From contig NZ_JPON01000001.1 of the NCBI RefSeq assembly GCF_000733935.1, positions 3,732,623 to 3,796,622 of the forward strand: 64,000 nucleotides of DNA. Direction: 5' to 3'. Below the pieces are notes generated by a model that did not search any database, had not been told where the DNA came from, and saw only the letters and a list, made by a program, of their open reading frames with translations. Positions 35,279-55,124 of the stretch are shown here, piece after piece. A program made the position numbers and the translations under genes. This stretch comes from Methylomarinum vadi. GTDB taxonomy: Bacteria > Pseudomonadota > Gammaproteobacteria > Methylococcales > Methylomonadaceae. How positions within the stretch are numbered: position 1 is the first letter of the stretch; the number at the start of each line of letters is the position of its first letter.

Positions 35279-35423
35279 GAAGTTGTTCGGATGATTGACT
35301 GAGCGTTGATTTAGGTATTAGACAATGAATTGCTTGGTTGAATAACTATAGACATATTCTGACTACCCATCAAAAATATAGTCATCGCATCAAAATTCGC
35401 CACATTGACACCTTCTCCTTTCG

Positions 35424-37167
35424 GAGGCTGTCGTAAAAGCCCCCCAACCAGCTACATACGGTAAAATAACCCTATCCAAACCTATTAGAAATAGATCAAT
35501 GGCAGCCGAAGTGAACATTAGACCCGTCAGGACATTGTATAGCGCCAAGCAATATTCGCTATTCGATGAATGCGAGGTTGAACCGTTACCTGAGTTGATC
35601 GCTCAATCGATCTCGAGCGAACCGATGGCCCGTTTTGAAGCGCCCGACCCGCGCGGCTTATCGATCAACGGTAAACCGCTCGGCGAACATCTGGAGCACG
35701 CCGGCTTAACCATCCCGTTGAAATTGCGCCCCTTCCTGCAATCGCTATCCTTCGCCGAGTTCGAAGCCCGTTATCGGCCCGGCGGGCGTCCGCCGTATGC
35801 GCCACGTGCGATGGTGGGGATTATTCTCTACGGCCTGTTACAAGGCATCAGCAGCCTGCGCGACTTGGAGCGTTTAGCTCGAGCCGATGTGGGGTGTTGG
35901 TGGCTAAGTGGCGGTATCATGCCGGATCACTCAGTCATTGGCCGTTTCGTCCATCAGCATGCCGAATCATTGACGACCGAATTTTTCGATCAACTGGCGC
36001 GTCGTACTTTGAAAGTCACAGGCTCAGGCACGACGACGTTGGCGGGCGACGGTACCGTGATCGAAGCCATGTCCTCCCGGTTTCAATTGATGAAGGAAGA
36101 AGCGCTCAAGCAAGCCTTGGCGCAAGCGCAGGAAGCCGCGCAAGCCAAACCCGACGATGCAGCGGCAAGCAAGCGGTTGAACCTATTGGAACAAGCCCAA
36201 GCCGAGCTAAAGTCTCGCCAGCAAAAACAAGCCGCCAAAGGCAAAGATCCGGCCAAGACCCAAGTACAAAGCAACGAGCCGGAGGCGGTATTACAGCCGC
36301 AAAAGAACTCCAAAGACTTTCGCGGCAGTTATAAACCGTCGGTATTGGCGAACGACAATCGAGTGATCGTGGCTTGCGACGTTCATCCTTCCAGCGAAAC
36401 CGAGGTGGTGCCGGGCTTACTGGATCGCGCCCAAGCCATGGGAGGCGTCGAAACAGCTCTGTTCGATGCTGGCTATTTCAGCAATGGCGTCTTGGATACT
36501 GCTGAGCAACACAACATCGAATTGCTTTGTCCGGAAGGCCAAAGTGAAGGAGACGATTGGAACAAACAATCCAACAAACAAATCCCCAAAAGCCGCTTTA
36601 TTTATCAGGCCGACGACGACACCTATCGCTGTCCGGGGCAACAACGCTTGACTCGCCGTCACACCTGCAAAGGCGGTAAAAGTGGCCGCGCTTATACCGT
36701 CTACGCCTGCGATGCCTGTTCAGACTGCCCGCTGAAATCCCAATGCACGCGTAGCGAGAGTGGTCGCACCCTCAAACGCTATGACAGCGATACCCAAAAA
36801 GAAGCCCTGCGCCTGAAAATGGACCAGCCCGAACCTCGGCAACGCTATCGACAGCGGCAGGCCATGGTGGAGCCCGTCTTCAGTCAGCTACGCGGTCGCC
36901 AAGGTTTGAATCGCTTTCGCCGTAAAGGTTTGGCGGGTGTCAAAGTAGAGTTCGCCTTGCACGCCATGGCTTACAATCTGAGCCGCGCCTTAGTGGCAGC
37001 TCTTTTTCGTGCTTTATATCATTGGCTTAGCCGGTTTATGAGCTCGTTTGACCGAATGGTCGACATTTGGCTGAGTTACACTACTGACTTGCCAACTTCG
37101 CCGACCGTGGAAAATACGGCCGGTTTCCAGTGGTAAATCAAAGAAATTGGGGTTTTACGACGCCCTC
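35424..37167 (+). mobile_element. IS1182-family element
   Basis: About 1744 bp, with imperfect terminal inverted repeats GAGGCTGTCGTAAAAGCCCC (left) and GGGGTTTTACGACGCCCTC (right), flanked by TTTCG on both sides (35419-35423 and 37168-37172). This looks like a 5-bp target duplication. It holds one transposase gene that appears intact, and it is inserted in the loop of a palindromic repeat. Confidence 0.8.
35499..37136 (+). CDS. IS1182-family DDE transposase
   Basis: A 545-residue transposase. The N-terminal DUF772-like region includes RPGGRPPYAPRAMVGIILYGLLQGISSLRDLERL. The DDE core shows Asp in TLAGDGTVIEA, Asp in TALFDAGYFSNG and Glu in RQAMVEPVFSQLRGRQGLNRFRRKG. A Gln/Ala/Lys-rich helical insert lies between the first Asp and the second (about 200-265). 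A Cys cluster (ACDACSDCPLKSQC, about 405-418) is typical of IS1182 members. The frame is full length and uninterrupted, so the element may still be active. Confidence 0.92.
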   Translation: MAAEVNIRPVRTLYSAKQYSLFDECEVEPLPELIAQSISSEPMARFEAPDPRGLSINGKPLGEHLEHAGLTIPLKLRPFLQSLSFAEFEARYRPGGRPPYAPRAMVGIILYGLLQGISSLRDLERLARADVGCWWLSGGIMPDHSVIGRFVHQHAESLTTEFFDQLARRTLKVTGSGTTTLAGDGTVIEAMSSRFQLMKEEALKQALAQAQEAAQAKPDDAAASKRLNLLEQAQAELKSRQQKQAAKGKDPAKTQVQSNEPEAVLQPQKNSKDFRGSYKPSVLANDNRVIVACDVHPSSETEVVPGLLDRAQAMGGVETALFDAGYFSNGVLDTAEQHNIELLCPEGQSEGDDWNKQSNKQIPKSRFIYQADDDTYRCPGQQRLTRRHTCKGGKSGRAYTVYACDACSDCPLKSQCTRSESGRTLKRYDSDTQKEALRLKMDQPEPRQRYRQRQAMVEPVFSQLRGRQGLNRFRRKGLAGVKVEFALHAMAYNLSRALVAALFRALYHWLSRFMSSFDRMVDIWLSYTTDLPTSPTVENTAGFQW

Positions 37168-37343
37168 TTTCGGGAGAAGGCTGAATGAGGGTCCATAAAA
37201 ACCGAATTTTGATGCGAATAGTATAGATCCCACGATTGAACCCAGTTTGGACCAGGCGCATGTTTTTTTTGCGGACGGGAAAGAATGACTGGCAATAGGC
37301 GTTTACAGCCCCTATTGTGCGGTATGACGATCGGATAATCCTT

Positions 37344-54932: not shown

Positions 54933-54965
54933 GCGATGAATCGACAAGGTTTAGTCATCGCACTT

Positions 54966-55037
54966 CAAATTTCGGCACCTTAATACCTTTGCCCTCCGGG
55001 AGAAGGCTGGATGAGGGCATCAAAAAACCGGAATTTG
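54966..55037. repeat. Palindromic repeat related to the one split by IS1182
   Basis: Outer arms CAAATTTCGG and CCGGAATTTG and the core GGGAGAAGGCTGGATGAGGG match the repeat at 35386-37216 in layout and sequence. It lies directly after the porin gene. Confidence 0.6.
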
Positions 55038-55043
55038 CAGTTT

Positions 55044-55124
55044 GTAGCCTGGATGCAGCGTAGCGGAATCCGGGATGGCGCGGTTCCGAGGCCCCGTATT
55101 CCGCGATGCTTCATGCGGGTTACG
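55044..55124. repeat. Inverted genomic repeat
   Basis: GTAGCCTGGATGCAGCGTAG (continuing to a GGAATCCGGG) at 55044-55074 is inverted at 55093-55124. This 'GTAGCC(C/T)GGATGCAGCG' sequence is a common dispersed repeat in proteobacteria. It lies just before the thioredoxin-like gene end. Confidence 0.6.

Follow-up and report, generated by a model that had tools for sequence, protein, structure and literature searches.

Organization of the insertion locus

The DNA analyzed (hereafter the window) is a 64,000-nucleotide stretch of the Methylomarinum vadi genome. It contains an insertion sequence (IS) flanked by two minus-strand genes, named by inspection: one of the cation-efflux type and a large one for a molybdopterin-type oxidoreductase. 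The features of the locus, in window coordinates, are as follows.

35385..35399, plus strand: palindromic repeat, left outer arm TCGCATCAAAATTCG, 15 bp
35411..35418, plus strand: central hairpin, left arm CCTTCTCC
35419..35423, plus strand: target duplication TTTCG, left copy (the hairpin loop)
35424..37167, plus strand: IS1182-family insertion sequence, 1744 bp, terminal inverted repeats GAGGCTGTCGTAAAAG / GTTTTACGACGCCCTC
35499..37136, plus strand: transposase ORF, 545 aa, DUF772 and DDE domain, NF033551 IS1182 family
37168..37172, plus strand: target duplication TTTCG, right copy
37173..37180, plus strand: central hairpin, right arm GGAGAAGG
37203..37217, plus strand: palindromic repeat, right outer arm CGAATTTTGATGCGA, 15 bp
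54948..55055, minus strand (contig 3787570-3787677): empty copy of the ~109-nt palindromic repeat, central hairpin CCTTTGCC-CTCCG-GGAGAAGG

Judged by its sequence, the transposase is a predicted DDE enzyme of the IS1182 family. It passes the curated family model NF033551 with 286.2 bits (cut-off 270) and carries the Pfam domains DUF772 and DDE_Tnp_1_6; the arrangement of a single 545-aa ORF within 1744 bp with matching ends agrees with the family (~1.5-1.8 kb), and the element is mobile and multicopy (16 copies, 13 of them with an exact 4-5 bp duplication). As the original prediction had it, the IS is flanked by TTTCG on both sides, and removing it together with one TTTCG rebuilds stem, loop and stem (CCTTCTCC-TTTCG-GGAGAAGG, 8/8 bases paired); the outer arms were rightly described as perfect, their length being 15 bp and not 14. 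The IS and its duplication hence split a perfect 8-bp-stem hairpin inside a larger palindrome, and the joined flanks with one TTTCG fold into a central hairpin nested within the outer arms at -25.9 kcal/mol.

The interrupted site is a member of a ~109-nt palindromic, MITE-like repeat with outer arms of 15-18 bp around a central hairpin and ends near TATACTGTTCGCACTTCAAA / TTTGAAGTGCGATGACTATA. Empty repeats, whose existence the original prediction had proposed to look for, were indeed recovered: a covariance model found 17 distinct ones in the M. vadi genome, one of them in the window, and further ones in congeners, and in Photorhabdus, which harbors a related element (see below), nine or more empty copies of that element's target repeat were present. 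The arms of the ~109-nt repeat show one clear compensatory position (A-U, U-A and G-C at one pair), and no match to the repeat was found in Rfam. In a congener the neighbouring efflux gene is 81% identical and the intergenic region is unrelated, so that no orthologous empty site can be read there.

Copies of the element in the M. vadi genome

The M. vadi genome (4.34 Mb, one contig) carries 16 copies of the IS, which fall into a subgroup of eleven (97-100% identity) and one of five (96-97%); no other copy was found at strict E-values among 151 genomes of the family or 369 of the class. The ends of partial copies were placed by terminal-repeat matching. The five older copies (L012-L016 / L064-L068) form a second subfamily, whose transposase ends at an earlier stop close to its C-terminus, with changed codons before this stop and a different tail; reading the "internal stop" as a sign of inactivation was rejected, since it lies past the DDE domain.

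The exact duplication seen in 13 copies measures 5 bp in twelve and 4 bp in one, and it mostly reads CNNNG. Six of the 16 copies (L022, L023, L026, L027, L028 and L032) lie in REP-like hairpins whose arms are CCTTCTCC or CCCTCTCC, and the same central five bases are split in all six. Among the 13 copies with an exact duplication, the arms pair at 8/8 positions at two sites and at 7/8 or better at four, while around any 5-mer of the window 8/8 pairing occurs at 2/62,118 positions and at least 7/8 at 52/62,118 (~8e-4). Binomial probabilities, computed by hand, are roughly 8e-8 for the two sites at 8/8 and 3.5e-10 for the four at 7/8 or better; thus insertion into hairpins is not due to chance.

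Other copies soften this picture. At least six of the 16, all with duplications, interrupt genes. Pfam identifies the ORFs restored by joining their flanks as a TOTE-type primase-helicase, CorA, an MFS transporter, a SpoIIE-type phosphatase, an amidohydrolase and a resolvase. The safe-site strategy between genes, which had been proposed for the element from the window locus, is therefore not borne out. The first of these genes, with primase and helicase domains of a TOTE conflict system, is a putative defence gene and is interrupted by copy L025 (contig about 3489763-3491506). Copy L023 was not counted as disrupting a gene, the stop-to-stop ORF crossing its junction only upstream of the likely start.

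Half of the duplicated sites show no clear hairpin, and copies with unpaired flanks, the case that the original prediction had set against itself, were encountered for about half of the M. vadi copies. At the seven non-REP sites, left and right arms show no excess of pairing over shuffled flanks (3.29 vs 3.06 of 8, p=0.37), and by DNA-fold energies 1622/2000 shuffles were as good as the real flanks. What these sites share is sequence: position -4 on the left is C in 7/7 and position +2 on the right is G in 6/7 (13/13 and 11/13, respectively, over all duplicated sites), and a symmetric preference for pyrimidines on the left and purines on the right is enough to explain them. A perfect hairpin, CCACCCGC-TTGA-GCGGGTGG, present in the window at about 23138, 29902, 53510, 57589 and 58175 with a similar second hairpin nearby, is used by no IS1182 copy, which indicates that hairpins as such are insufficient.

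Relatives in other genera

A scan of 84,980 species genomes with a three-sequence alignment returned 50 loci; a single-protein query against genome contigs gave no match. The relatives occur in Massilia, Photorhabdus, Marinomonas, Advenella, Halomonas-like species and others, with transposases mostly 44-48% identical, and one in Methylotetracoccus is at 63%; a copy on a Xenorhabdus plasmid, found in a separate search, is a further relative. Their ends are GAGGGTGTCGCAAAAG or near it.

Inspection of their flanks had been suggested as a check, and the relatives with 44-48% identical transposases (in Photorhabdus, Massilia, Advenella, Xenorhabdus and Halomonas) give the hairpin idea better support than the M. 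vadi copies do. At 11/18 duplicated sites the 4-5 bp duplication coincides exactly with a hairpin loop, the stems being unrelated, as in ACCCCCCGTTC-TGGT-GAACGGGGGGT, GTTCCCGC-TTTC-GCGGGAAC, CCTCGCCC-TTCA-GGGCGGGG and CGCCG-TGTA-CGGCG; at the other 7/18 the duplication is not exactly the loop. With each of the 13 target families represented by one site, the flanks pair at 6.08 of 8 positions vs 4.13 after shuffling (p=5e-5), and DNA-fold energies agree with the pair counts (28/2000 shuffles as good as the real flanks). When shuffles were confined within the host the p value was 0.04-0.08 (seven sites), so this covariation lies partly between hosts and host-specific symmetric consensus sequences are possible. 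Both in the M. vadi copies and in the relatives, pairing is high only in registers whose dyad axis runs through the middle of the duplication.

Among Photorhabdus thracensis copies about 99.5% identical to each other, the duplication is TGGT (4 bp) at a tetraloop (L090) and AGTGC/GCACT (5 bp) at pentaloops (L086, L089); at a further copy, L088, it is TATA, with no clear hairpin. These few sites are suggestive of a loop length that sets the duplication length.

Several copies lack a duplication. In P. thracensis such copies are L085, L087, L100, L101, L102, L106 and L115, mostly bearing the same hybrid flanks, with CTCCCCGCCGTAAA on one side and GCACTGG..AGGGTTTACGG on the other, or the reverse complement; either recombination between copies or insertion at the edge of the loop may have produced them. 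In Massilia cavernae, L081 and L083 occupy the same repeat in opposite orientations, their flanks being near reverse complements, as expected of a symmetric target. Plasmid-borne IS1182 copies that are more distantly related often have 4-bp duplications and weakly symmetric flanks.

Comparison with known systems

That IS1182 members can target palindromes is known from published work: a 2015 review, as it is cited in PMC5678879 and PMC4923244, states this for some members, and IS1272 and TnSha1, IS1182-family elements of Staphylococcus, target stem-loops of varied sequence, delete them and make no target duplication (PMC5678879, PMC4923244). The authors of the IS1272 work propose that structure is recognized over sequence, and pathway c of their model (Fig 13) foresees loop duplication as an alternative (PMC5678879). 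The M. vadi element shares with them the family and, at part of its sites, a target that is an inverted repeat able to form a stem-loop, probably of variable sequence in the wider clade; its transposase has only ~25% similarity to that of IS1272, over part of the length. IS1272 removes the stem-loop, whereas in the present case both stem arms persist, one on each side of the IS, and the 4-5 bp of the loop are duplicated, which sets the element apart from stem-loop-replacing transposition. Targeting of inverted repeats irrespective of sequence, as in those systems, is indicated for the relatives by the pairing statistics above and is not seen at the non-REP sites of M. vadi. What distinguishes the present case is the loop-duplicating outcome, together with the variation between 4 and 5 bp.

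ISs that target REPs are known from five other families and include IS1397, ISKpn1 and ISPsy8 (IS3), IS621, ISPa11 and ISPpu9/10 (IS110), ISRm22 and others (PMC1525189). Like the M. vadi element they have a fixed insertion point in repetitive extragenic palindromes, some with short duplications, and in ISRm22 hybrid copies without matching duplications were also found (PMC1525189). Their transposases belong to other families, IS1182 not being among the five of PMC1525189, and each follows a near-fixed REP sequence, while relatives of the M. vadi element use unrelated stems and many copies lie outside repeats. For the type 1 ISs of PMC1525189, insertion is essentially confined to REPs; here only 6/16 are in REP-like hairpins and at least six in genes. 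Plasmid-borne IS1182 elements of the ISPa7/ISPa22 type have in common with it the family, a similar terminal repeat (GAGGCTGTGTGAAAAC) and often 4-bp duplications in a somewhat symmetric context, but their transposases are about 26-30% identical and the few examined show no clear strong hairpin.

Target recognition and its outcome

The data support insertion of the element and its relatives at the centre of dyad symmetry in palindromes, the duplicated bases being the loop. We consider it probable that the M. vadi element is a recently active, ordinary IS1182-family DDE element that prefers dyad-symmetric targets centred on the cut, hairpin-forming palindromes being those that fit best. The transposase, as the presumed recognizing agent, would act on a symmetric target, REP/MITE-like hairpins with loops of 4-5 nt being favoured; the two strand transfers would flank the loop, gap repair would leave it duplicated (4-5 bp), and one stem arm would remain on each side of the IS. 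The target may be extruded when attacked. Across the wider clade, recognition is probably directed, at least partly, at the hairpin or cruciform itself.

A serious possibility is pure sequence recognition, in which a transposase dimer binds a dyad-symmetric consensus in duplex DNA with no hairpin or cruciform involved. DDE transposases usually have symmetric targets, and for the M. vadi element the consensus would be roughly CNNC-NC[C-NNN-G]G-NG, with REP hairpins fitting by symmetry and C/T-G/A bias alone; the C at -4 and the G at +2, the many CNNNG duplications and the lack of per-site pairing beyond the consensus at non-REP sites all speak for it. Against it, unrelated stems pair site by site across the 13 target families of the relatives, and duplication length tracks loop length in the near-identical Photorhabdus copies.

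This last observation also bears on the spacing of the strand transfers, which we tentatively suggest could be set by the hairpin loop and not by the transposase, both ends of an extruded loop being attacked, so that a single element of this clade would give 4 bp at tetraloops and 5 bp at pentaloops. If true, it would correspond to the loop-duplicating pathway in the model of the IS1272 authors, who drew it and did not observe it.

The original prediction held that a hairpin loop or cruciform is recognized and duplicated. Insertion at the dyad centre and duplication of the loop stand; a strict requirement for a hairpin does not, given the seven non-REP sites. Such strict recognition, with loop duplication serving as a safe-site strategy, would account for the window site, the five other REP-type copies and the hairpins of the relatives, and it appears unlikely against the copies within Pfam-recognizable genes and the half of the duplicated sites that lack a clear hairpin. 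Finally, a random insertion that fell into one repeat, or an assembly artefact, had nothing in its favour but the single locus as first seen and is refuted by the multi-copy statistics, with six copies at the same centre against a background of 8e-4 and relatives behaving likewise across several genera, leaving it practically no credence.

The preference for dyad-symmetric targets, as we read these data, is no strict safe-site rule, and it illustrates how one conspicuous locus can suggest a stronger rule than the other copies in the same genome bear out. It also places palindrome targeting in a defined proteobacterial clade of the IS1182 family, with loop duplication instead of loss of the stem-loop, and the many natural insertion sites and empty sites make the question of structure versus sequence in targeting by a DDE transposase directly testable.
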